Below, one piece after another: positions 2,485-52,375 of a stretch of 64,000 bases of DNA; within the stretch, counting starts at the first letter, position 1, and every line of letters starts with the position of its first letter. The translations under genes were made by a program, and so were the position numbers. The DNA comes from Aphrophora alni (lineage: Eukaryota; Arthropoda; Insecta; Hemiptera; Aphrophoridae). The stretch is from NCBI GenBank assembly GCA_963513935.1, contig OY740771.1, positions 17,653,349 through 17,717,348 on the forward strand. The letters are read 5' to 3'. The notes under the pieces are model-generated. The model saw only the letters and a list, made by a program, of their open reading frames with translations, was not told where the DNA came from and searched no databases.

Positions 2485-3702
2485 TTTGATAAAAACATTT
2501 TTTATATTCCATATTATTTGTAAATTTATTTTGAAAATCGTAAAAAAATCTTAGGGCATTAAACCCAGTGTCTAGCAGCTGTAGTATCAATAAATAAACA
2601 ACATTATGAAAAACTAAAAAATTACTATTGAAAGATGAAATTTATAAATATCAATAGAAACGTACTATGCCAAAGATATGCACAACAACATAAATTATGT
2701 GTGTATGTTGCTATTAAGGTAGGTAAAATAAATTAAATATAATTTTAAGTTAGGCCTAGAAAGATGAACCAATACATATTTCTTGAATGTACCTATTGGC
2801 ATTTATTACCATAGCAGCCAATTTAATAAAATAACTGATGAAACAGTTGATTCGGATGTCCAGCTAGTACAAATAATATTTTTAAGTTAGGCCTAGATTG
2901 AACCAACATATATTTCAACACACACAAACCAATAAAAGCTTGCGTTAAGATAATAATATTTAAAATTAAGAAAACAATATGTTACAATCTAATTTAAAAA
3001 AAAAGATATTAGAATTTAATAGTAGGCTAGGCCTATTTATAATATGGTAAATGATATATTTTATAAATTGAAAATTGCCTCTTTTATTTATAACAATACA
3101 AAATCTCTGTCCTAATTAATATTCCCGAGAAAATAACATTGTGTACAATAACCTGTTTTAAAAAAAATAATTTATGTAACATTTAGATAAGTTTTTATTT
3201 AAATTGTAGGCCTAACTGTTACAATTTTATGTTTTGTATTTATAAAGATTCTTTAATTTTAAAATAAAGATATAAATATTGTCTTTTAAGTGTTTTTTAT
3301 TTCATATTGATATATTAATTATCTTAGAAGTAATTAATTATATTAGTTATGTTATTATAAAATTTGGAAGTGTAATACAGTTTAGATTATAAAATAAATG
3401 GGTTTTTTGAATTGTAGGCCTAGTTGTTACAATTTTATGTTTTGTATTTATTAGGATTTTTTAATTTTAAAAGAAAGATAAAAATATGACCTTTTAGGCC
3501 TAATTATTTTTAATTTTATATTGATAAATCAAATGGTTTAATATAGTTATTAATATTATAATGATGAAAATAGGTTATGACAAAAAATGTTATTTGAGTT
3601 ATTGTAATTTTTTTATTTAATCTGGTTTAACCAAATGAAAGACGGTGAAAAAATACAAAAAATTATTTATTTATACTCACGAAATTAATGCTATAGTAAA
3701 TG
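2485..3702. other. AT-rich Helitron interior without a gene
   Basis: Low-complexity AT-rich sequence with several loosely repeated segments (TTAGGCCTA, TGTTACAATTTTATGTTTTGTATTT at about 3215-3245 and 3424-3450). No open frame of interest. Confidence 0.5.
3697..3702. repeat. Target site duplication TAAATG, left copy
   Basis: TAAATG here immediately precedes the palindromic element; the same six bases follow it at 15124-15129. Six bases is the duplication length known for Polinton/Maverick insertions. Confidence 0.8.
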
Positions 3703-3738
3703 AGTAGAGTGTGCTACACTTGAGGACAAAAATGGTGG

Positions 3739-4086
3739 GGGTACCCCCACCCCTCCCCCCTCCCCCCTTCGCCCCTCCCCCTTTGCCCCTCCCCCTCCCC
3801 CCTCCCCCCTTTGCCCCTCCCCCCTTTGCCCCTCCCCCTTTGCCCCTCCCCCTTTGCCCCTCCCCCTTTGCCCCTCCCCCCTTTGCCCCTCCCCCTTTGC
3901 CCCTCCCCTTTAGGCCCCTTCCCTTCCCCCATTGGTCCCCCCACCCCTCCCCTTGCCCCTCCCCTGTAGGCCCCTCCCCTTTAGGCCCCTTCCCTTCCCC
4001 CATTGGTCCCCCACCCCTCCCCTTGCCCCTCCCCTGTAGGCCCCTCCCCTTTAGGCCCCTTCCCTTCCCCCATTGGTCCCCCCACC
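3739..4086. repeat. C-rich minisatellite, left arm (G-quadruplex-prone)
   Basis: Repeats of about 14-15 bp built on CCCCTCCCCCTTTG, then longer units with CCCCTCCCCTTTAGGCCCCTT. The minus strand has dense runs of four or more G, able to form G-quadruplexes. Open frames in all directions here are by-products of the repeat. Confidence 0.9.
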
Positions 4087-4155
4087 TGTGACGTATTGTT
4101 GTCGAGACACACACACGACGTCATACACACATGACGTCATACACTTAACTTTTTT

Positions 4156-4227
4156 AATACCAGCGGGATTCGAACCTGTGAAGTTTGGATTTGAAGGCGG
4201 ACACGCTACCGACTGAGCTATCGTGCA
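4156..4227 (-). tRNA. tRNA-like Pol III unit, left arm (degenerate)
   Basis: On the minus strand there is a good box A (TAGCTCAGTCGGTAG) and, 29 bp later, a perfect box B (GGTTCGAATCC). The T-arm pairs partly and the T-loop TTCGAAT is intact, but the acceptor stem and D-stem do not close, so it is unlikely to be a working tRNA. It may be an internal Pol III promoter or SINE-like head firing toward the element's left end. A mirrored copy lies at 14599-14670. Confidence 0.55.
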
Positions 4228-4263
4228 TAGTATTACAAGTCGGATATTTAACGCGGTATATAA

Positions 4264-7200
4264 GCCGCCATGTTGTAACCGCAATAATGTGTTATATATA
4301 TATAATGTGTTAAGATAGTTAACCTAACCTATAAGTGTCCTACAGTTGCCCATCCACAGCCTATCAGCTGTTACAATAATGTGTTATATAATTATATAAT
4401 GTGTTAAGATAGTTAACCTAAAGTTTCCCACCTTTGCCCATCCACAGCCAATCAGCTGTTACAATAATGTGTTATATATTTATATAATGTGTTAAGATAG
4501 TTAACCTAACCCCATAGTATTACAAGTCGGATATTTAACGCGGTATATAAGCCGCCATGATGTAACCACAATAATGTGTTATATATATATAATGTGTTAA
4601 GATAGTTAACCTAACCTATAAGTTTCCTACTTTTGCCCATCCACAGCCTATCAGCTGTTACAATAATGTGTTATATAAGTATATAATGTGTTAAGATAGC
4701 TAACCTAAAGTTTCCCACATTTGCCCATCCACAGCCTATCAGCTGTTACAATAATGTGTTATTATATAATGTGTTAAGATAGTTAACCTAAAGTTTCCCA
4801 CCTTTGCCCATCCACAGCCAATCAGCTGTTACAATAATGTGTTATATATATATATATAATGTGTTATATACTTATATAATGTGTTAAGATAGTTAACCTA
4901 ACCCCATAGTATTACAAGTCGGATATTTAACGCGGTGCCGCCAACGCCAGAACATTTCGTAGAAGTTCGGACACGAACCCCTTACCGTAAGACTTACCGA
5001 GTTTTTCGCGACCGCGAAAAACTCGCGTACGTCTTACGGTATGGGTTCTGAGTCGTACCTCTAGGTTACTCTGACAACAAATAGTAGTGTCCAAATTGTA
5101 ATGTGCTTGTGTTAACCTAACCTATAAGTTTCCTACTTTTGCCTACCACAGCCTATCAGCTGTTACAATAATGTGTTATATATATATATATAATGTGTTA
5201 TATATTTATATAATGTGTTAAGATAGTTAACCTAACCTATAAGTGTCCTACTTTTACCCATCCACAGCCTAACAGCTGTTACAATAATGTGTTATTATAT
5301 AATGTGTTAAGATAGTTAACCTAAAGTTTCCTACCTTTGCCCATCCACAGCCAATCAGCTGGTACAATTAATGTGTTATATATATATAATGTGTTATATA
5401 TTTATATAATGCGTTATATAATGTGTTAAGATAGTTAACCTAACCTATAAGTTTCCTACTTTTACCCATCCACAACAGCCAATCAGCTGTTACAATAATG
5501 TGTTATATATATATATATATATAATGTGTTATATATTTATATAATGTGTTGAGATAGTTAACCTAACCTATAAGTTTCCTACTTTTGCCTATGTTCACCA
5601 CAGCCTACTTGAATCAGCTGGTACAATTAATGTGTTATATATTTATATAATGTGTTAAATATGTATATAATGTGTTAAGATAGTTAACCTAACCTATAAG
5701 TTTCCCACTTTTGCCTATGTTCACCACAGCCTACTTGTAACAGCTGGTACAATAATGTGTTATATATATATATATATGTAATGTGTTATATATTTATATA
5801 ATGTGTTATATATGTATATAATGTGTTAAGATAGTTAATCTAACCTATGTATGAAAAGTTTTTACCTATGTTCACCACAGCCTACTTGTAACAGTTGGTA
5901 CAATTAATGTGTTATATATTTATATAATGTGTTATATATGTATATAATGTATTAAGATAGTTAACCTAACCTATAAGTTTCCTACTATTGCCTATGTTCA
6001 CCACAGCCTACTTGTAACAGCTGGTACAATAATGTGTTATATATTTATATAATGTGTTATATATGTATATAATGTGTTAAGATAGTTAATCCAACCTATG
6101 TATGAAAAGTTTTTACCTATGTTCACCACAGCCTACTTGTAACAGTTGGTACAATCAATGTGTATTTATATAATGTGTTATATATTTATATAATGTGTTG
6201 AGATAGTTAACCTAACCTATAAGTTTCCTACTTTTGCCTATGTTCACCACAGCCTACTTGAATCAGCTGGTACAATTAATGTGTTATATATTTATATAAT
6301 GTGTTATATATGTATATAATGTGTTAAGATAGTTAACCTAACCTATAAGTTTCCCACTTTTGCCCATCCACAGCCTACTTGTAACAGCTGGTACAATAAT
6401 GTGTTATATATATGTAATGTGTTATATATTTATATAATGTGTTATATAGTTATATAATGTGTTAAGATAGTTAACCTAACCTAAAGTTTCCTACTTTTGC
6501 CTATGTTTACCACAAGTTTCCTACTTTTGCCCATCCACAGCCAATCAGCTGTTACAATAATGTGTTATATAATATATATAATGTGTTATATATTTATATA
6601 ATGTGTTATATAATGTGTTAAGATAGTTAACCTAACCTATTAGAGTTTCCTACTTTTGCCCACCACGGCCTAGGTACATTTAATGTGTATAATGTGTTAA
6701 ACGTAGTTTCCTCCGTTGCCTACCAGGGTGTAGCACATGTGTTTAAGTATCGTGTTAAAATATTGTTAACCTAGACTTAATTCCTACTTTTGCCTATTAA
6801 CCTAACCTATAAGTGTCCTACTTTTACCCATCCACAGCCAATCAGCTGTTACAATAATGTGTTATTATATAATGTGTTAAGATAGTTAACCTAAAGTTTC
6901 CTACCTTTGCTCATCCACAGCCAATCAGCTGGTACAATTAATGTGTTATATATATATATATAATGTGTTATATATTTATATAATGTGTTATATAATGTGT
7001 TAAGATAGTTAACCTAAAGTGTCCTACTTTTACCCATCCACAGCCAATCAGCTGTTACAATAATGTGTTATATATATATATAATGTGTTATATATTTATA
7101 TAATGTGTTAAGATAGTTAACCTATAAGTGTCCTACTTTTATCCATCCACAGCCAATCAGCTGTTACAATAATGTGTTATATATATACAATGTGTTATAT

Positions 7201-7860
7201 ATTTATATAATGTGTTAAGATAGTTAACCTAACCTATAAATGTCCTACTTTTACCCATCCACAGCCTATCAGCTGTTACAATAATGTGTTATATAATTAT
7301 ATAATGTGTTAAGATAGTTAACCTAACCTATAAGTTTCCTACTTTTGCCCATCCACAGCCAATCAGCTGGTACAATTAATGTGTTATATATTTTATATAA
7401 TGTGTTAAGATATAATGTGTTAAGATAGTTAACCTAACCTATAAGTTTCCTACATTTGCCCATCCACAGCCTATCAGCTGGTACAATTAATGTGTTATAT
7501 ATAATGTGTTAAGATATAATGTGTTAAGATAGTTAACCTAACCTATAAGTTTCCTACTTTTGCCCATCCACAGCCAATCAGCTGTTACAATAATGTGTTA
7601 TATATAATGTGTTATATATTTATATAATGTGTTATATAATGTGTTAAGATAGTTAACCTAACCTATTAGAGTTTCCTACTTTTGCCCACCACGGCCTAGG
7701 TGGGTACACATTTAATGTGTATAATCTGTTAAACGTAGTTTCCTCCGTTGTCTACCAGGGTGTAGCACATGTTTTTATGTATCGTGTTAAAATATTGTTA
7801 ACCTAGACTTAATTCCTACTTTTGCCTAAACCTATGCTTACCACAGTCCAAACGAGTGTT
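4264..7860. repeat. AT-rich satellite array, left arm
   Basis: About 3.6 kb of imperfect units of roughly 70-150 bp. A typical unit runs AATGTGTTATATA...TAATGTGTTAAGATAGTTAACCTAACC, then TATAAGTTTCCTACTTTTGC, then CCACAGCCAATCAGCTG. Units vary in the number of TATATA steps. A longer block ending AACGCGGTATATAAGCCGCC recurs at about 4226, 4510 and 4904. Two unlike blocks near 6680-6790 and 7680-7830 repeat each other. The core contains the telomere-like CCTAACC. Confidence 0.9.
4983..5041. other. Strong hairpin/cruciform inside the left satellite
   Basis: CGAGTTTTTCGCG (4998-5010) is an exact inverted repeat of 5013-5025 across a 2-base centre, and an outer pair TACCGTAAGAC (4983-4993) matches 5031-5041 with short internal bulges. 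It is GC-richer than the satellite around it and occurs once per arm. This could be a replication or recognition site; function is inference only. Confidence 0.8.
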
Positions 7861-7877
7861 AGTCTGGCCACTATTTA

Positions 7878-8012
7878 ACCGAACCGAAATTACCAACCGA
7901 TTTACCAACCGAAATATACTTTTACCAACCGATTTACCAACCACAATATACTTTTACCAACCGATTTACCAACCAAAACCAACCGATTTACCAACCAAAA
8001 CCAACCGATTTA
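7878..8012. promoter_or_regulatory. Iteron-like array upstream of the left-arm gene
   Basis: Five copies of ACCAACCGATTTACCAACC (the last partial) are spaced about 21 or 31-32 bp, i.e. about two or three helical turns, and lie 60-190 bp before the start codon at 8073. Spaced direct repeats beside a single gene look like binding sites for that gene's product, as in plasmid and viral Rep systems. This role is inferred. Confidence 0.5.
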
Positions 8013-8023
8013 CTGTCTGGAGT

Positions 8024-8032
8024 TAATATAAA
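8024..8032 (+). promoter_or_regulatory. TATA-like box of the left-arm gene
   Basis: AATATAAAA lies about 45 bp before the ATG at 8073, between the iteron-like array and the gene. Mirrored at 10794-10802. Confidence 0.35.
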
Positions 8033-8072
8033 ACCACTAACTCCGCTTACAAAACCATTCCGCGACAACATA

Positions 8073-8471
8073 ATGCTTGTTAAAATAACCGACAGTTCGG
8101 ATTGCGAACAAGGGAAGAGCCTCGTAAAGAAGAATATCTGTGGAGTATTTAACAGTTATCTTCGTGGGAAATTTACGGATTTTGTTTCCGCAAGACATGG
8201 CGTAAAAGTAAAATTACCATTCCCTTTGAATGGAAAGAGACCTATGGCGAATCGTGTATGCAATATTATTGGAGCAGATGGGATGCAAGCCATTGCAAAG
8301 AAATTTAAAAATCCCATTGCAATCCCCTACAAGGTAGAGTTAGCGGATGTTGAGTTGGCTACTCTACAGGAAAAAATGCCCGAAATACTATTGGCTTCTA
8401 CCTTATGGATTTGGACATTACACAAGATTTTGTGGGGATCTTTAACAAGCGAGAGATGTGTGAGCATTTAG
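8073..8471 (+). CDS. Unknown 132-residue protein, left arm of the palindromic element
   Basis: ATG at 8073 opens 132 codons to TAG at 8469-8471, followed by AATAAA-type polyadenylation signals at about 8484-8496. I do not recognise the family. The first ~100 residues are basic and look like genuine coding (starts MLVKITDSSD; contains KLPFPLNGKRPMANR near 48-62 and NIIGADGMQAIAKKF near 65-79). The last ~28 residues look poor. A second frame (codons at 8390, 8393 and so on) is open across that stretch to TAA at 8480-8482 and has a more natural composition; a shift could lie at the A6 run 8371-8376. So the gene may be frameshifted or use programmed slippage. The identical state in both arms shows the change predates or was copied between the arms. 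It is the only gene per arm, flanked by iteron-like repeats, so a DNA-binding or replication role is a guess. Confidence 0.6.
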   Translation: MLVKITDSSDCEQGKSLVKKNICGVFNSYLRGKFTDFVSARHGVKVKLPFPLNGKRPMANRVCNIIGADGMQAIAKKFKNPIAIPYKVELADVELATLQEKMPEILLASTLWIWTLHKILWGSLTSERCVSI

Positions 8472-8651
8472 TACGTCATTAAAAATAAATAAATAAATGT
8501 TTTAAAATAATATTCTTTGTAATTTGTTACCTCCATTCCACCAAAACCTCTTTTTAGTAGAGATGAAGATATTTGATGTGACCTTGGAATTGTAGCCGAA
8601 AACGACACGACCCCCCCAACCCCCATTTTTCCTTTTTAAATATATAACGTC

Positions 8652-8758
8652 GTAACGTTTGTTAGGAACCGATTTACCAAACCGTAGATAAAATTACCAA
8701 GATTTGGTTGGTAAATTGGTTGCAAAAAGTATATTTTGGTTGGTAAATCGGTTGGTAT
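8652..8758. promoter_or_regulatory. Iteron-like repeats downstream of the left-arm gene
   Basis: ACCGATTTACCAA then, inverted, TTGGTTGGTAAATTGGTTG and TTGGTTGGTAAATCGGTTGG. The same core as the upstream array, mostly in the opposite orientation, so the gene sits between inverted arrays. Confidence 0.45.
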
Positions 8759-9373
8759 TGGTTAGGTTAGGTTAGGTTAGGTCTGGTTAGGATAGGTTAG
8801 GATAGGTTAGGTTAGGTTAGGTCTGGTTAGGATAGGTTAGGTTATGTTAGGTTATGTTAGGATAGGATAGGTTAGGTTAGGTTAGGTTAGGATAGGTTAG
8901 GTTAGGTTAGGATAGGTTATGTTAGGTAAGGTTAGGTTAGGTTAGGTGAGGTTAGGTTAGGTTAGGATAGGTTAGGTTAGGTTAGGTTAGGTTTTTAGGA
9001 GAATGGTTGTTAGGTTAGGTTAGGATAGGATAGGTTAGGTTAGGTTAGGTTAGGTTAGGTTAGGTTAGGATAGGTTATGTTAGGTTAGGTTAGGTTAGGT
9101 TAGGATAGGTTAGGTTATGTTAGGTGAGGTTAGGTTAGGTTAGGATAGGTTAGGTTAGGTTAGGTTAGGTTTTTAGGAGAATGGTTGTTAGGTTAGGTTA
9201 GGATAGGATAGGATAGGTTAGGTTAGGTTAGGTTAGGTTAGGTTAGGATAGGTTATGTTAGGTTAGGTTAGGTTAGGTTAGGATAGGTTAGGTTAGGTTA
9301 GGTTAGGTTAGGATAGGTTAGGTTAGGTTAGGTTAGGTTAGGATAGGTTAGGTTAGGTTAGGTTAGGTTAGGT
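8759..9373 (+). repeat. (TTAGG)n telomere-type array, left arm
   Basis: About 615 bp of TTAGG pentamers with frequent variants (TTAGGA, TTATG). A block GGTTTTTAGGAGAATGGTTG interrupts at about 8990-9010 and 9169-9188, making a higher-order repeat of about 178 bp. The G-rich strand runs 5' to 3' toward the palindrome centre, as at a chromosome end. Confidence 0.95.
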
Positions 9374-9452
9374 TTTTAGAGTGGTTGCCACACGCCTACC
9401 AACCTCCGTCCCACCCCTACCATCTCCCGGGCGTGTGGCAACCACTCTAAAA
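9374..9452. other. Palindrome centre: 33-bp asymmetric spacer with flanking arms
   Basis: Left arm ends at 9396 (GTGGTTGCCACACGCC) and right arm begins at 9430. The spacer 9397-9429 is pyrimidine-rich on plus and not self-complementary. It looks like the loop of a hairpin rather than a simple telomere-to-telomere joint. Confidence 0.9.
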
Positions 9453-10067
9453 ACCTAACCTAACCTAACCTAACCTAACCTATCCTAACCTAACCTAACC
9501 TAACCTAACCTATCCTAACCTAACCTAACCTAACCTAACCTATCCTAACCTAACCTAACCTAACCTAACATAACCTATCCTAACCTAACCTAACCTAACC
9601 TAACCTAACCTATCCTATCCTATCCTAACCTAACCTAACAACCATTCTCCTAAAAACCTAACCTAACCTAACCTAACCTATCCTAACCTAACCTAACCTC
9701 ACCTAACATAACCTAACCTATCCTAACCTAACCTAACCTAACCTAACATAACCTATCCTAACCTAACCTAACCTAACCTAACCTAACCTAACCTATCCTA
9801 TCCTAACCTAACCTAACAACCATTCTCCTAAAAACCTAACCTAACCTAACCTAACCTATCCTAACCTAACCTAACCTCACCTAACCTAACCTAACCTTAC
9901 CTAACATAACCTATCCTAACCTAACCTAACCTATCCTAACCTAACCTAACCTAACCTATCCTATCCTAACATAACCTAACATAACCTAACCTATCCTAAC
10001 CAGACCTAACCTAACCTAACCTATCCTAACCTATCCTAACCAGACCTAACCTAACCTAACCTAACCA
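9453..10067 (-). repeat. (CCTAA)n telomere-type array, right arm
   Basis: Mirror of 8759-9373. With the left array it forms a TTAGG...CCTAA head-to-head layout. Confidence 0.95.
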
Positions 10068-10354
10068 ATACCAACCGATTTACCAACCAAAATATACTTT
10101 TTGCAACCAATTTACCAACCAAATCTTGGTAATTTTATCTACGGTTTGGTAAATCGGTTCCTAACAAACGTTACGACGTTATATATTTAAAAAGGAAAAA
10201 TGGGGGTTGGGGGGGTCGTGTCGTTTTCGGCTACAATTCCAAGGTCACATCAAATATCTTCATCTCTACTAAAAAGAGGTTTTGGTGGAATGGAGGTAAC
10301 AAATTACAAAGAATATTATTTTAAAACATTTATTTATTTATTTTTAATGACGTA

Positions 10355-10753
10355 CTAAATGCTCACACATCTCTCGCTTGTTAAAGATCCCCACAAAATC
10401 TTGTGTAATGTCCAAATCCATAAGGTAGAAGCCAATAGTATTTCGGGCATTTTTTCCTGTAGAGTAGCCAACTCAACATCCGCTAACTCTACCTTGTAGG
10501 GGATTGCAATGGGATTTTTAAATTTCTTTGCAATGGCTTGCATCCCATCTGCTCCAATAATATTGCATACACGATTCGCCATAGGTCTCTTTCCATTCAA
10601 AGGGAATGGTAATTTTACTTTTACGCCATGTCTTGCGGAAACAAAATCCGTAAATTTCCCACGAAGATAACTGTTAAATACTCCACAGATATTCTTCTTT
10701 ACGAGGCTCTTCCCTTGTTCGCAATCCGAACTGTCGGTTATTTTAACAAGCAT
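10355..10753 (-). CDS. Unknown 132-residue protein, right arm of the palindromic element
   Basis: Start at 10753, stop at 10355-10357 on the minus strand. Its translation is identical to the left-arm copy at 8073-8471, including the poor C-terminal stretch and the alternative open frame, which here runs to 10344-10346. The two copies converge on the telomere-type core. Upstream iteron-like repeats are at 10814-10948 and downstream ones at 10068-10174. Confidence 0.6.
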   Translation of the reverse strand: MLVKITDSSDCEQGKSLVKKNICGVFNSYLRGKFTDFVSARHGVKVKLPFPLNGKRPMANRVCNIIGADGMQAIAKKFKNPIAIPYKVELADVELATLQEKMPEILLASTLWIWTLHKILWGSLTSERCVSI

Positions 10754-10813
10754 TATGTTGTCGCGGAATGGTTTTGTAAGCGGAGTTAGTGGTTTTATAT
10801 TAACTCCAGACAG

Positions 10814-10948
10814 TAAATCGGTTGGTTTTGGTTGGTAAATCGGTTGGTTTTGGTTGGTAAATCGGTTGGTAAAAGTATATTGTGGTTGGTAAATCGGTTG
10901 GTAAAAGTATATTTCGGTTGGTAAATCGGTTGGTAATTTCGGTTCGGT
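10814..10948. promoter_or_regulatory. Iteron-like array upstream of the right-arm gene
   Basis: Mirror of 7878-8012: spaced copies of GGTTGGTAAATCGGTTGGT. Confidence 0.5.
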
Positions 10949-10965
10949 TAAATAGTGGCCAGACT

Positions 10966-13900
10966 AACACTCGTTTGGACTGTGGTAAGCATAGGTTTAG
11001 GCAAAAGTAGGAATTAAGTCTAGGTTAACAATATTTTAACACGATACATAAAAACATGTGCTACACCCTGGTAGACAACGGAGGAAACTACGTTTAACAG
11101 ATTATACACATTAAATGTGTACCCACCTAGGCCGTGGTGGGCAAAAGTAGGAAACTCTAATAGGTTAGGTTAACTATCTTAACACATTATATAACACATT
11201 ATATAAATATATAACACATTATATATAACACATTATTGTAACAGCTGATTGGCTGTGGATGGGCAAAAGTAGGAAACTTATAGGTTAGGTTAACTATCTT
11301 AACACATTATATCTTAACACATTATATATAACACATTAATTGTACCAGCTGATAGGCTGTGGATGGGCAAATGTAGGAAACTTATAGGTTAGGTTAACTA
11401 TCTTAACACATTATATCTTAACACATTATATAAAATATATAACACATTAATTGTACCAGCTGATTGGCTGTGGATGGGCAAAAGTAGGAAACTTATAGGT
11501 TAGGTTAACTATCTTAACACATTATATAATTATATAACACATTATTGTAACAGCTGATAGGCTGTGGATGGGTAAAAGTAGGACATTTATAGGTTAGGTT
11601 AACTATCTTAACACATTATATAAATATATAACACATTGTATATATATAACACATTATTGTAACAGCTGATTGGCTGTGGATGGATAAAAGTAGGACACTT
11701 ATAGGTTAACTATCTTAACACATTATATAAATATATAACACATTATATATATATATAACACATTATTGTAACAGCTGATTGGCTGTGGATGGGTAAAAGT
11801 AGGACACTTTAGGTTAACTATCTTAACACATTATATAACACATTATATAAATATATAACACATTATATATATATATATAACACATTAATTGTACCAGCTG
11901 ATTGGCTGTGGATGAGCAAAGGTAGGAAACTTTAGGTTAACTATCTTAACACATTATATAATAACACATTATTGTAACAGCTGATTGGCTGTGGATGGGT
12001 AAAAGTAGGACACTTATAGGTTAGGTTAATAGGCAAAAGTAGGAATTAAGTCTAGGTTAACAATATTTTAACACGATACTTAAACACATGTGCTACACCC
12101 TGGTAGGCAACGGAGGAAACTACGTTTAACACATTATACACATTAAATGTACCTAGGCCGTGGTGGGCAAAAGTAGGAAACTCTAATAGGTTAGGTTAAC
12201 TATCTTAACACATTATATAACACATTATATAAATATATAACACATTATATATATTATATAACACATTATTGTAACAGCTGATTGGCTGTGGATGGGCAAA
12301 AGTAGGAAACTTGTGGTAAACATAGGCAAAAGTAGGAAACTTTAGGTTAGGTTAACTATCTTAACACATTATATAACTATATAACACATTATATAAATAT
12401 ATAACACATTACATATATATAACACATTATTGTACCAGCTGTTACAAGTAGGCTGTGGATGGGCAAAAGTGGGAAACTTATAGGTTAGGTTAACTATCTT
12501 AACACATTATATACATATATAACACATTATATAAATATATAACACATTAATTGTACCAGCTGATTCAAGTAGGCTGTGGTGAACATAGGCAAAAGTAGGA
12601 AACTTATAGGTTAGGTTAACTATCTCAACACATTATATAAATATATAACACATTATATAAATACACATTGATTGTACCAACTGTTACAAGTAGGCTGTGG
12701 TGAACATAGGTAAAAACTTTTCATACATAGGTTGGATTAACTATCTTAACACATTATATACATATATAACACATTATATAAATATATAACACATTATTGT
12801 ACCAGCTGTTACAAGTAGGCTGTGGTGAACATAGGCAATAGTAGGAAACTTATAGGTTAGGTTAACTATCTTAATACATTATATACATATATAACACATT
12901 ATATAAATATATAACACATTAATTGTACCAACTGTTACAAGTAGGCTGTGGTGAACATAGGTAAAAACTTTTCATACATAGGTTAGATTAACTATCTTAA
13001 CACATTATATACATATATAACACATTATATAAATATATAACACATTACATATATATATATATATAACACATTATTGTACCAGCTGTTACAAGTAGGCTGT
13101 GGTGAACATAGGCAAAAGTGGGAAACTTATAGGTTAGGTTAACTATCTTAACACATTATATACATATTTAACACATTATATAAATATATAACACATTAAT
13201 TGTACCAGCTGATTCAAGTAGGCTGTGGTGAACATAGGCAAAAGTAGGAAACTTATAGGTTAGGTTAACTATCTCAACACATTATATAAATATATAACAC
13301 ATTATATATATATATATATATAACACATTATTGTAACAGCTGATTGGCTGTTGTGGATGGGTAAAAGTAGGAAACTTATAGGTTAGGTTAACTATCTTAA
13401 CACATTATATAACGCATTATATAAATATATAACACATTATATATATATAACACATTAATTGTACCAGCTGATTGGCTGTGGATGGGCAAAGGTAGGAAAC
13501 TTTAGGTTAACTATCTTAACACATTATATAATAACACATTATTGTAACAGCTGTTAGGCTGTGGATGGGTAAAAGTAGGACACTTATAGGTTAGGTTAAC
13601 TATCTTAACACATTATATAAATATATAACACATTATATATATATATATAACACATTATTGTAACAGCTGATAGGCTGTGGTAGGCAAAAGTAGGAAACTT
13701 ATAGGTTAGGTTAACACAAGCACATTACAATTTGGACACTACTATTTGTTGTCAGAGTAACCTAGAGGTACGACTCAGAACCCATACCGTAAGACGTACG
13801 CGAGTTTTTCGCGGTCGCGAAAAACTCGGTAAGTCTTACGGTAAGGGGTTCGTGTCCGAACTTCTACGAAATGTTCTGGCGTTGGCGGCACCGCGTTAAA

Positions 13901-14562
13901 TATCCGACTTGTAATACTATGGGGTTAGGTTAACTATCTTAACACATTATATAAGTATATAACACATTATATATATATATATAACACATTATTGTAACAG
14001 CTGATTGGCTGTGGATGGGCAAAGGTGGGAAACTTTAGGTTAACTATCTTAACACATTATATAATAACACATTATTGTAACAGCTGATAGGCTGTGGATG
14101 GGCAAATGTGGGAAACTTTAGGTTAGCTATCTTAACACATTATATACTTATATAACACATTATTGTAACAGCTGATAGGCTGTGGATGGGCAAAAGTAGG
14201 AAACTTATAGGTTAGGTTAACTATCTTAACACATTATATATATATAACACATTATTGTGGTTACATCATGGCGGCTTATATACCGCGTTAAATATCCGAC
14301 TTGTAATACTATGGGGTTAGGTTAACTATCTTAACACATTATATAAATATATAACACATTATTGTAACAGCTGATTGGCTGTGGATGGGCAAAGGTGGGA
14401 AACTTTAGGTTAACTATCTTAACACATTATATAATTATATAACACATTATTGTAACAGCTGATAGGCTGTGGATGGGCAACTGTAGGACACTTATAGGTT
14501 AGGTTAACTATCTTAACACATTATATATATATAACACATTATTGCGGTTACAACATGGCGGC
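10966..14562. repeat. AT-rich satellite array, right arm
   Basis: Inverted mirror of 4264-7860, unit for unit, with the same order of variants. Confidence 0.9.
13785..13843. other. Strong hairpin/cruciform inside the right satellite
   Basis: Mirror of 4983-5041, with the same 13-bp inner and 11-bp outer stems. Confidence 0.8.
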
Positions 14563-14598
14563 TTATATACCGCGTTAAATATCCGACTTGTAATACTA

Positions 14599-14670
14599 TG
14601 CACGATAGCTCAGTCGGTAGCGTGTCCGCCTTCAAATCCAAACTTCACAGGTTCGAATCCCGCTGGTATT
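14599..14670 (+). tRNA. tRNA-like Pol III unit, right arm (degenerate)
   Basis: Mirror of the left unit: box A at 14606-14620 and box B at 14650-14660, reading toward the right terminus. The acceptor stem does not close. No T-run terminator follows closely; an A-run does. Confidence 0.55.
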
Positions 14671-14739
14671 AAAAAAGTTAAGTGTATGACGTCATGTGTG
14701 TATGACGTCGTGTGTGTGTCTCGACAACAATACGTCACA

Positions 14740-15087
14740 GGTGGGGGGACCAATGGGGGAAGGGAAGGGGCCTAAAGGGGAGGGGCCTACAGGGGAGGGG
14801 CAAGGGGAGGGGTGGGGGACCAATGGGGGAAGGGAAGGGGCCTAAAGGGGAGGGGCCTACAGGGGAGGGGCAAGGGGAGGGGTGGGGGGACCAATGGGGG
14901 AAGGGAAGGGGCCTAAAGGGGAGGGGCAAAGGGGGAGGGGCAAAGGGGGGAGGGGCAAAGGGGGAGGGGCAAAGGGGGAGGGGCAAAGGGGGAGGGGCAA
15001 AGGGGGGAGGGGCAAAGGGGGGAGGGGGGAGGGGGAGGGGCAAAGGGGGAGGGGCGAAGGGGGGAGGGGGGAGGGGTGGGGGTACCC
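14740..15087. repeat. G-rich minisatellite, right arm
   Basis: Exact mirror of 3739-4086, with the G-rich strand on plus. It lies about 35 bp from the right terminus. Confidence 0.9.
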
Positions 15088-15123
15088 CCACCATTTTTGT
15101 CCTCAAGTGTAGCACACTCTACT

Positions 15124-15129
15124 TAAATG
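15124..15129. repeat. Target site duplication TAAATG, right copy
   Basis: Matches 3697-3702 and directly follows the right terminus ...CTCTACT. Confidence 0.8.
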
Positions 15130-26702: not shown

Positions 26703-27406
26703 AGATAATAATAATCTATAGAGAAACTCAGATTGTCAATACAAGTATTTTCAGAACTGAATCATTATTTGCTTAAATCATTTCATTAGAACCCGACTCC
26801 AGGCATCACCTTGAATTCCTAACAGTTCCAAAATACATAAATATTATGTTTGTTTCAAATCCATGAAATATATCCCTCAAATTTGCACCAAAATATAATC
26901 AATTTTTCAAAATATAATAATTTTATTTTATAACCAACATAAATTAAACTAAAAAAAAAAGAAAAAAAAAACAATCAGTCAGAAATTTTGTTCTTCTCAT
27001 TATCTGAAGATAATAATGAGGAACATAATTATAAAGATAGACAGATAGAAGACATTCAAAATATAGTTGTACAAACACTGAAACAACATTTAAAAAGCAA
27101 ACCTTTACCATTTTCAGAATTCTTTTCTGAAACGTTAATAAAATGTATTTCCAAAATTATCGTCCACTTAAAATTGAGCAAATACCAAATAAAAATAAAT
27201 TCTAAGGTAGTTGTTGAAAGAAGCTATTTAGACATATTTAGCATCTCTCCATTTTTTTTATTACGAATGATTCACTTATGAAAAGACACTCAATCTAAAC
27301 TTTTCTACACTACGGATGTTGATTTCTATATACGTATTTTGTATTATATATTTTGTAATCATTGGTTAAGCTGTGTTTATAATGAATCTCAATGACTCAT
27401 ATATAT

Positions 27407-27472
27407 AACCTAACCTAACCTAACCTAACCTAACCTAACCTAACCTAACCTAACCTAACCTAACCTAACCAT
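27407..27472 (-). repeat. Short interstitial (CCTAA)n tract
   Basis: About 13 perfect CCTAA pentamers. Unlike the arrays in the palindromic element it has no variants, suggesting recent formation by telomerase-type repair or slippage. Confidence 0.9.
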
Positions 27473-29687: not shown

Positions 29688-29887
29688 NNNNNNNNNNNNN
29701 NNNNNNNNNNNNNNNNNNNNNNNNNNNNNNNNNNNNNNNNNNNNNNNNNNNNNNNNNNNNNNNNNNNNNNNNNNNNNNNNNNNNNNNNNNNNNNNNNNNN
29801 NNNNNNNNNNNNNNNNNNNNNNNNNNNNNNNNNNNNNNNNNNNNNNNNNNNNNNNNNNNNNNNNNNNNNNNNNNNNNNNNNNNNNNN
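29688..29887. other. Assembly gap, 200 N
   Basis: Exactly 200 N, probably a fixed-size scaffold join. Sequence left and right need not be as close as drawn. A 77-residue minus frame ending here (29915-30148) is of unknown nature. Confidence 0.99.
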
Positions 29888-32208: not shown

Positions 32209-33831
32209 TTAATCATCTTCGTCGTCTTGAACGTCGTCTGGTTGTGTTGGTAGAGTGTCCTCTAACATCTGGCAAAAGTACTCTTGCACTTCAGCATTTA
32301 AATAAGGCATCATTTTCCTTATATCCTTTTTCTTCTTTTCGGGGAGGCCAAAACGAGTTCGTTTTTTGGGCAGTTCAATGTTTTTAAAATCGGCCAAAGT
32401 CTTGCCTGGTTTCAAGATGTTGATTCCTTCATTCCAGTTTATTATCTCGCCATAGGTTGTAGCTACCTGTACTGTTCCGAATTCAGCAGACGTCAGTCGA
32501 AGTTGAGTCGAGCAGGAAATGCCCAGTTTCTTTGTGTTTAGATGTGCCTGGGCTACAGTTTTGAAGTCGAAGAACTCTTCTTGAATCATGCACATAAATG
32601 GATTTTTATGTGATGCGCTTGTGATGATTTCTGCAATTTCCTTCACAGTATGTGCCTTGCAAACCTTTTTGCGCTTTTCAATTAGAGCAAAATCTCTGTC
32701 ACAACTGAGGAACGTATGGCCTTTTACAGGAAATTTGTGCACAATTTCTGTAAAGTAATCATTTGCTAACAAGACCATATACATAGCCAACATAAACTGA
32801 TTTTTGTTCTGGCCTCCACAGTTGTCTGACCAACATATCAGTTTTTTTTTGCCCCTTAGGTTAGTTGTAGTCAAATATTCATAAATACAAGAAGAAATTT
32901 CATGCGAACCTCTTCCACCAAAGTTCTCTGACCAAAGGCACATGAAACCACTTCTAGTTACACTATCGTGGATACCCAAATTGCAGCATGCTACTTGTTG
33001 AGAGTAGTACATCTCGGAATGAGTTAGTTGTGGTATGTACATTTGCTGCTGCAAATCAAAGGTTATGACATAATCATCTGGTGTTTTATTGCCTTCATCA
33101 TCGCTCATAGCTGTAAAAGCAGCTTCAGCTTTGCGATGGTGTAATTCTTGTTCAGCTTTTACAGATGTGTCTCCAGCCTTGAGTTTTACTGCAAAGGAGT
33201 CACAAGTTGAACAAGTGTCAACTTTTGGTGATTGAAAAGAAAGATTAAATTTTGTCAAAAATATCTCATGAAACCACTGTCTGCTGACTGGAGGCTTACC
33301 CTCATTGTTAGAAGCATATTGCTCCAAAAACTGCCTGTACATTCGGCTGACATTTAAGTCTGGTGACAAAAACAATTTATCAGGGTTTTTTTTCCTACAG
33401 TAGTGGCTCTCATAGGTTGGAAAACTCTTAATGTGTTCAACGATTTTTGCTGACCACTCTATGTTTTCAGCATTTTTTCTTGCACCCCCTCTTTTATCAG
33501 ACCCTACCATATCACCTTTGAGAATTTTTTCCCCAACCAATTGAACCCTTCTGGGTGTGATTCCAAAGGTATTACAAAATGTTTTAAGACATACTTTTAC
33601 CTCAGATCCTCCACGCAGAAGAAAGAAGTAGGAAAACGAGTGCTGCCTTCGACTTTCACTTGGATGGTCGTATTTGCCGTATCTTCGTCTTTTTATAAGT
33701 TGGGGATGGATTAATCTCAGTAAGTAGTTTTGTTGCTTACTATAGTCACTCAAGTTCCAGAAGTCTTCAAACAGTTGTTGTCTATAGGCTAAAGCAATCG
33801 CTTTACATGAGTTTGTGCATTTGCATGTCAC
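32209..33831 (-). CDS. DUF7869-type transposase-like protein, exon 2
   Basis: 540 codons from the acceptor TTTCAG|GTGACATGC to a stop at 32209-32211. In the spliced protein (594 residues) a Cys cluster (CKCTNSC) opens the exon near 57, and a CSTC pair lies near 261-264, likely zinc-binding. An RNase H-like DDE core is suggested by FDLQQ (Asp about 313), CWSDNCGGQNKN (Asp about 390) and CDRDFALIEKRK (Asp 432/434, Glu about 439). A short acidic tail ends it. From memory the core matches arthropod proteins annotated DUF7869; a transposase role is inferred from these acids and from its exact fit inside the inverted ends. Frames through the end of exon 2 are clean. A possible polyadenylation signal (AATAAA on minus) is near 32041. 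Confidence 0.75.
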   Translation of the reverse strand: MTCKCTNSCKAIALAYRQQLFEDFWNLSDYSKQQNYLLRLIHPQLIKRRRYGKYDHPSESRRQHSFSYFFLLRGGSEVKVCLKTFCNTFGITPRRVQLVGEKILKGDMVGSDKRGGARKNAENIEWSAKIVEHIKSFPTYESHYCRKKNPDKLFLSPDLNVSRMYRQFLEQYASNNEGKPPVSRQWFHEIFLTKFNLSFQSPKVDTCSTCDSFAVKLKAGDTSVKAEQELHHRKAEAAFTAMSDDEGNKTPDDYVITFDLQQQMYIPQLTHSEMYYSQQVACCNLGIHDSVTRSGFMCLWSENFGGRGSHEISSCIYEYLTTTNLRGKKKLICWSDNCGGQNKNQFMLAMYMVLLANDYFTEIVHKFPVKGHTFLSCDRDFALIEKRKKVCKAHTVKEIAEIITSASHKNPFMCMIQEEFFDFKTVAQAHLNTKKLGISCSTQLRLTSAEFGTVQVATTYGEIINWNEGINILKPGKTLADFKNIELPKKRTRFGLPEKKKKDIRKMMPYLNAEVQEYFCQMLEDTLPTQPDDVQDDEDD

Positions 33832-34072
33832 CTGAAACAAAACATAAAAAATAGCTTACTTTTAAATTATGTCCTTAATTTATTAATTTTGCAACTGACT
33901 GTTTATCTGTTTAGATTAGCGAGCATATACATGAGGAGGATTGTAAAAGTAAAAAAAAGACAGAATGAGCTATACATTTTCATTAAAAAAATATATATAT
34001 AGGCCTAAAGTAAAGTCAACTTAAATAAACACTTGAATAATCCTAAAATACTAATTTGAAGGCTAGACTTAC

Positions 34073-51454: not shown

Positions 51455-52375
51455 TTTATTATTACTTTCTCTATGTATCGGAGTCTGAGAAAGTTTGTGC
51501 AATCTTTTTGCATTTATTATTAGTTTGACTATATATGGGAGTCTGAAAAAGTTAGTGAAATATTTTTCGTCATTTTATTTTTAATATGTATGGGTATGTG
51601 AGGAAGTTTGTGCAATATTTTTGAATTGATTATTAGATTGACTATGTATGGGAATCTGAGAAAGTTAGTGCAATATTTTTCGTAGATTTTTATTTTTTAT
51701 ATGTATGGATAGTTTTGTGAAAAAGTTTGTTCAATATTTTTGGATTGATTATTAGTTTGACTATGTATGGGAGTCTGAGAAAGTTAGTGCAATATTTTTC
51801 GTAGATTTTTTATTTTAATATGTATGGGCATGTGAGAAAGTGTGTGTAATATTTCTGCACTGATTACTAGTTTCATTATGAATGCGAGTCTGAGCTAGTT
51901 AGTGTAATATTTTTGGTAGTTTTTTAGTTTTAATATATATGGGTATGTGAGAAAGTTTGTGCAATATTACTGCATTGATTACTAGTTTGACTATGTATGG
52001 GAGTCTGAAAAAGTTAGTGCAATATTTTTGGTAAAATTTTAGTTTTAATATATATGGGTATGTGAGAAAGTTTGTGCAACAATTCTGCATTGATTACTAG
52101 TTTGACTATGAATGGGAGTCTGAGAAAGTTAATGCAATATTTTTCGTAGATTTTTAGTTTTAATATAATAATAAATGGGTAAGTATGTGAGAAAGTTAGT
52201 GCGATATTATTTGTAGATTTTTTAAATTTTATATGGATACGTATGTGAGAAAGTTAGTGCAATATTTTTGTAGATTTTTATTTTTAATATATATGGGTAA
52301 GTATGTGAGAATGTTTGTGCAATATTTCTGCATTGATTACTAGTATGACTATGTATGGAGTCTTAAACGTTATAA
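51455..52375. repeat. About 115-bp satellite made of two related half-units, about 8 copies
   Basis: One half reads GGGAGTCTGAGAAAGTTAGTG then CAATATTTTTCGTAGATTTTT; the other GTATGTGAGAAAGTTTGTGC then AATATTTCTGCATTGATTACT. The shared core G-GAGAAAGTT-GTGCAATATTT shows a roughly 57-bp ancestral unit. The period drifts from 113 to 119 bp, and the last units are rearranged. Confidence 0.85.

Follow-up and report, generated by a model that had tools for sequence, protein, structure and literature searches.

How does an insect chromosome come to carry an inverted repeat more than 11 kilobases (kb) long whose two arms do not differ at a single position? The locus that raises this question lies in a stretch of 64,000 nucleotides (nt) from Aphrophora alni (Hemiptera: Aphrophoridae; assembly GCA_963513935.1, contig OY740771.1, positions 17,653,349 to 17,717,348 of the forward strand), the whole of which we call the window. 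Arm-to-arm comparison delimited a palindrome of 11,421 base pairs (bp) at 3703-15123, labelled E1 throughout. We consider it probable that E1 is a gene-deleted member of a fully palindromic family that rides on Polintons, its arms being homogenised by snap-back (hairpin) replication and the restored unit entering the chromosome by Polinton-type integration. The palindrome is defined by the following features:

3703..9396, + strand: left arm, 5694 bp, 0 mismatches to the right arm
9430..15123, − strand: right arm, 5694 bp
9397..9429, no strand: unpaired centre or hairpin loop, 33 bp, also central in six other palindromes read
3697..3702, no strand: left 6-bp target duplication, TAAATG
15124..15129, no strand: right 6-bp target duplication, TAAATG

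The two arms are reverse-complementary at 5694 of 5694 positions, with 0 mismatches and no indel, which bears out the near-perfect palindrome of two 5,694-bp arms described in a first-pass annotation made from the letters alone, and the AG...CT ends and flanking TAAATG that it reported are present precisely at the termini, which read AGTAGAG...CTCTACT. The symmetry also ends exactly there, the left and right flanks being unrelated.

Copies elsewhere in the 1.7-gigabase assembly were sought with the 94 bases of the left end, which gave 819 candidate places, 40 of them scored. Of the 40, 26 formed 13 inward-facing pairs, one of which is the window copy, with spacings of 10.8 to 22.8 kb. We fetched the stretches of ten other pairs, the ends only of the remaining two pairs (E12 and E13), the ends of two unpaired termini (U12 and U14), and the ends of gene-bearing elements; E12, E13, U12, and U14 were read at their ends, and C8 and C9 largely so. 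Ends were sought for six gene-pair elements and found in C8 and C9, the fetched segments of the other four lying inside the element. An exact 6-bp duplication was present in all 15 of the elements with both ends seen (E1, E2, E3, E4, E5, E6, E8, E10, E11, C8, C9, E12, E13, U12, and U14), that of E3 after one end was moved by one base; C8 has TACTTA, and C9 has TACAGG, the latter read by eye. As one 6-mer match is expected by chance with a probability of 5e-4 at this base composition, exact repeats in 15 of 15 copies exclude chance. AG ends also recur in other copies, so that a check for copies lacking these two features, which would have spoken against the interpretation in the first-pass annotation, did not refute it. 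E12 was inserted into another copy, within one of its satellite units: once joined, the E12 flanks give a gapped alignment with the arm of E1, at 85%, that runs through the junction. The outer 6-mers of E7 and E9 match as well; both were left out of the count because each holds 200 N. The left copy at E7 is itself an 11.47-kb palindrome, and the right flank there has no repeat of its left duplication. The scaffold gaps of 200 N in these two copies, E7 and E9, occupy L029:2572-2771 and L023:8367-8566.

Perfect arms are typical of fold-back reads and scaffolding errors, and E7 and E9, with their 200-N gaps, resemble doubled or unmerged contig ends, which would suit an assembly in which one arm had been artificially mirrored. 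The flanks of E1, however, are unlike one another, and a fold-back read therefore offers no explanation for the palindrome in the window; the only N run in the window (29688-29887) falls outside the palindrome, and the same centre recurs at 40 scored places. We regard an artefact as very improbable in general, and we rejected it for the window copy on account of its different flanks and exact duplication.

Four elements (E1, E2, E6, and E11) are palindromes that could be followed without a gap to the centre. Aligned to its own mirror image, E1 shows 0 mismatches; E2 shows 0 mismatches and 2 gap positions in 6270; E11 has 1 mismatch in 5394; and E6 has 3 mismatches and 20 gap positions in 5504. 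In E12, going by coordinates, a candidate centre falls precisely midway between the ends. A single 33-nt loop, which varies little and occurs in either orientation, occupies the centre of E1, E2, E6, E7, E9, E11, and L052, and the 87-bp centre of the window copy returned 223 candidate places in the genome, with all 40 that were scored, the window's own among them, matching over the full length. Because a single loop and stem are shared, one fold-back event is likely to have been ancestral to all of these palindromes. The fullest member fetched is E11 (10.8 kb), which consists of a terminal repeat, a gene of 797 codons, a TTAGG-like array, the 33-nt loop, and then the mirror image of these parts.

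The case for copying between arms rests on changes that separate one element from another and yet appear in both halves of each, as most such differences do. Deletion A, which removes about 1.7 kb of the gene, is found in both arms of E1, E2, E6, and E9, as well as in the left arm of E7, the only one of its arms compared; deletion B, of another piece of the gene, is found in both arms of E2, E6, and E9. The gene region shows 0 substitutions between the arms within each of six elements, and 0.4-1.2% between elements, with the exception of E11 against E2 and E6, which are the same (0) over a short overlap. In a 330-column block aligned from four elements, 11 of the 13 variable columns are mirrored, and the other two represent one 2-bp gap in E6. 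Over a block of 422 sites, E1 and E2 differ by 0.95%; at that rate, had the arms of E1 evolved separately since it parted from E2, its 5694 bp should show about 50 differences, and 0 were observed. Comparisons with E11 from the same analysis, which a deletion had misaligned, were left out. The mirrored changes suggest that one arm serves as the template for both.

Gene conversion between the arms, a known property of long palindromes, predicts mirrored changes as well, whether substitutions, deletions, or the pattern in the 330-column block. The principal rival is a palindrome of single origin that moves as double-stranded DNA through ordinary integrase insertion and whose arms are kept alike by conversion within the chromosome. 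Conversion in place, however, left unmirrored differences: the 3 mismatches and 20 gapped positions in E6, 2 in the gene of C1, and end windows at 94% in C9, in contrast to the 0 differences in 5694 bp of E1. Diverged arms are thus a feature of some insertions, the identity between arms being 99.6% in E6 and 99.7% over 4404 bp in C1, the pair whose 2 differences lie within the gene. Taken with low identities in end windows, these unmirrored differences indicate that homogenisation is not continuous in place, and we judge the conversion account to be rather unlikely.

Several observations weigh against snap-back copying as we propose it. The outer windows of five other gene-bearing elements show identities of 99.5, 98.7, 94.2, 91.0, and 84.8%, although these windows are repeat-rich and may be out of register. 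The gene is nearly the same in E11, C5, and C8, with 0-1 differences; the family is thus a young one, in which the contrast between within-element and between-element divergence depends on few changes. Conversion soon after insertion would also yield mirrored arms, and we saw neither an intermediate of replication nor an excision or a transcript.

Even so, we infer that arm-to-arm copying during replication would be the simplest account. Under the snap-back scheme, a helper Polinton would supply the integrase. A single strand displaced during replication would fold back on itself, the 33-nt loop closing the resulting hairpin; as the duplex end of that hairpin would equal a normal element end, synthesis could restart there and proceed past the loop. 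The two arms of the new molecule would then descend from one arm, differences between them being erased at each cycle, and the Polinton integrase would insert the restored full palindrome. The protein encoded by the family probably starts or resolves such replication.

The arms themselves have an ordered architecture. From the terminus inwards, that of E1 runs through C-rich repeats, AT-rich satellite, a gene remnant lying between the two members of an inverted repeat, a TTAGG array, and the stem of the hairpin:

3703..4567, + strand: outer 865 bp, common to the terminal repeats of coding Polintons by sequence comparison
14259..15123, − strand: mirror of the outer 865 bp
3750..4090, + strand: C-rich 14-bp tandem repeats (mirror 14736-15076)
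4226..7700, + strand: AT-rich satellite units of about 83-126 bp (mirror 11126-14600)
7876..8000, + strand: TTTACCAACCGA repeat, left member of the inverted repeat bounding the gene remnant (mirror 10826-10950)
8702..8769, − strand: right member of the TTTACCAACCGA inverted repeat (mirror 10057-10124)
8073..8471, + strand: remnant of 132 amino acids from the 797-amino-acid gene, about 1.7 kb missing relative to the intact copy E11
10355..10753, − strand: identical gene remnant of the right arm
8760..9374, + strand: degenerate TTAGG array directed towards the centre, 67% of its pentamers canonical
9452..10066, − strand: mirror of the TTAGG array
9370..9456, no strand: central stem-loop, a 27-bp stem of arm sequence around the loop, fold z score -11

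A tRNA-like stretch with A-box-like and B-box-like sequences was noted in the arm at 4160-4228; ARAGORN, run on the window, called no tRNA there, and Rfam gave no match at its gathering score.

The TTAGG arrays bear on the notion that the palindrome is a fusion of chromosome ends, arrays head to head. The pentamer is of the insect telomere type, and its G strand points towards the centre on both sides, as such a fusion would have it; a conserved, non-telomeric stem-loop nevertheless separates the two arrays. We rejected this reading, which seems to us extremely improbable, because only 67% of the pentamers are canonical and the copies are dispersed and flanked by 6-bp duplications.

Polintons (Mavericks) are recognised by inverted terminal repeats with AG...CT ends and by 6-bp target duplications. 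Half of the ten fetched pairs (E3, E4, E5, E8, and E10) are not palindromic; they measure 13.5-21.7 kb and have terminal repeats of about 1.3-2.2 kb. Pfam identified an rve integrase, a Pox_A32-type ATPase, and a double-jelly-roll protein in E3, and a 1247-amino-acid open frame matching DNA polymerase B in E4 (L013:1879-5619). The integrase, ATPase, and capsid frames are open in E5, E8, and E10, where they are 98-100% identical to those of E3; those of E4 stand at 72-80%. No frame longer than 396 amino acids occurs in the fetched stretches of E3, E5, E8, and E10, the Polintons of 13.5-14.2 kb, and a polymerase of the length found in E4 is therefore absent from them. On this gene content, the coding elements with these termini are Polintons, which bears out the affinity that the first-pass annotation had drawn from the ends.

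The window copy shares with these Polintons its terminal repeat sequence, AG...CT ends, and 6-bp duplications, and coding members are present in the same genome. Its outer 865 bp match the coding Polintons at 95-97% at seven of ten ends and at 85-88% at the right end of E4 and both ends of E10, and over its first 1.6 kb the E11 arm aligns colinearly, at 93%, with the terminal repeats of E3 and E5 (positions 1-1594 against E3). Unlike a Polinton, however, the window copy is inverted repeat throughout and lacks Polinton genes, and its sister copies carry the 797-amino-acid gene in both arms. The window copy holds no frames for integrase, DNA polymerase B, packaging ATPase, or double-jelly-roll capsid. 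As the integrase is absent from it and present in E3, E4, E5, E8, and E10, we class the palindrome, by sequence, as a Polinton-terminated satellite that is not itself a Polinton. A non-autonomous element whose terminal repeats fill the whole unit, one of two descriptions offered by the first-pass annotation, fits the window copy. The other, a head-to-head dimer of a linear replicon, fits if the dimer formed once, in an ancestor, for the same junction is found in every palindrome examined. The intact gene of the sister copies and the mirrored changes were beyond the view of that annotation.

Protein-primed linear DNAs are known to give copy-back derivatives, and the termini and outer parts of the palindromes equal the Polinton terminal repeat; each palindrome might, then, have been made anew from a one-armed Polinton-like element, in the manner of the defective genomes of protein-primed viruses. 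Independent events would not yield one shared 33-nt loop and stem, however, and neither the 9-base stem core that was tested nor a TTAGG run of more than 10 bases occurs in the ten stretches of coding Polintons. Repeated copy-back is improbable in our view, although copy-back may describe the founding event.

We turn to the gene that the family carries. The frame of 797 amino acids is open in both arms of E11. The remnant at 8073-8471 of the window matches proteins of Cinara cedri, Nilaparvata lugens, Laodelphax striatellus, and Semiaphis heraclei, as well as short metagenomic contigs, some directly and others through an alignment and a longer relative; by themselves these matches would make a hemipteran or related insect the probable host. 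With the protein of a relative (P0021) as query, the genome gave 893 candidate places, of which 91 were scored, 90 of them without an internal stop. By manual count, 54 of the 91 matches pair up convergently, giving 27 pairs, in one of which the members lie 21 kb apart; eight more form four divergent pairs, and 29 have no partner among the matches listed. Around the same centre, L052 has the gene in the opposite orientation, and this holds for both of its arms; the inverted repeats that bound the remnant in E1 could allow such flipping.

Searches with the 797-amino-acid protein found no Pfam family at E <= 1, PF02486 (Rep_trans) included, and only two NCBIfam rows with E values of about 0.01-0.02, far under the cut-offs. 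A profile search of Protein Data Bank (PDB) sequences was empty at E <= 10, IMG/VR scans found no viral relative of either the protein or the terminus, and there was no match to phage DNA or protein. Its conserved motifs DxTxD, YNK, and ITRLE all fall in predicted strands. Set beside the motifs of Rep_trans initiators, as given in PMC5714925, they recall the order of acidic motif, YxK tyrosine, and xTRLE, although the RxD of motif I is here DxD and the YxKxxE of motif III is without its final E. When a 469-residue model of P0021 was submitted to Foldseek, the top five rows were Rep_trans initiators (E 2e-3); in VIA-align the Rep_trans fold tied in score with TATA-binding protein, and with a model of a 320-residue piece of E11, Foldseek showed no Rep_trans among the 50 matches listed. 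The first row from a viral structure library was an uncharacterised Inoviridae protein (E 7.5e-5, TM score 0.2-0.3). The Rep_trans likeness is weak, with no Pfam, relevant NCBIfam, or PDB sequence match and a tied fold, which also counts against the replication scheme. We would describe the protein as initiator-like, and not as a member of Rep_trans.

Other systems share parts of this design. Foldback (FB), Galileo, and palindromic miniature inverted-repeat transposable elements have long inverted repeats rich in tandem repeats, but their transposases are of other types and their duplications of other lengths, Foldback and Galileo having a transposase of P or Mutator type and longer duplications. 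Here, by contrast, the whole unit is palindromic, its ends are those of Polintons, and the gene is encoded twice; the 6-bp duplications speak against membership. In yeast, linear plasmids give hairpin and inverted-dimer derivatives, and adenovirus has symmetric defective genomes, both illustrating how protein-primed linear DNA can yield a perfect palindrome capable of passing through a hairpin; the present elements differ in that they are integrated and dispersed as a family, have a conserved loop, and carry a gene of their own. Parvoviruses replicate by a rolling hairpin, with hairpin-primed copying, and adeno-associated virus does so with a helper virus. Parvovirus Rep combines an HUH nuclease with a helicase domain, whereas Pfam and NCBIfam revealed neither domain in the 797-amino-acid protein. 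We found no palindromic Polinton relative with a doubled gene among the open-licence papers listed, to which the search was confined, a weak negative with the subscription literature outside its scope.

We tentatively raise the possibility, which we hold to be somewhat doubtful, that these elements make up a class of their own among animal mobile elements, namely a self-complementary satellite that encodes its own replication initiator twice, replicates through a hairpin so that its halves correct one another at each cycle, and borrows integration, perhaps also packaging, from Polintons. Should this be true, mobile DNA would be keeping a mirror-image double of itself, with mutations between the halves erased on moving and the loss of part of the gene in one half passed to the other; the relatives of the gene in several Hemiptera would make the class widespread in the order, and the palindromes would preserve in the genome a testable sign that Polinton-type DNA of animals replicates through a hairpin. 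A satellite layer, with both gene-bearing and gene-deleted members, is added to a virus-like transposon. Such repeats may also break assemblies, scaffold gaps being present in two of the ten other pairs fetched.

Around the palindrome, the first-pass annotation had placed the insertion in a Helitron, an assignment that we could not uphold: only a fragment of a Pif1 2B domain was recognised, on the left side, and the right-hand frames were not compared with families. That fragment (1717-2550, − strand) is perhaps a remnant of a Helitron helicase. Joining the flanks of E1 gave no frame of at least 40 amino acids across the junction. Farther along the window lie a pure telomere-type array, (TAACC)13, with 100% matches (27406-27470); a 548-amino-acid open frame on the − strand with a DUF7869 domain, possibly transposon-derived (32209-33855); and a tandem array of 58/115-bp units (51458-52363).

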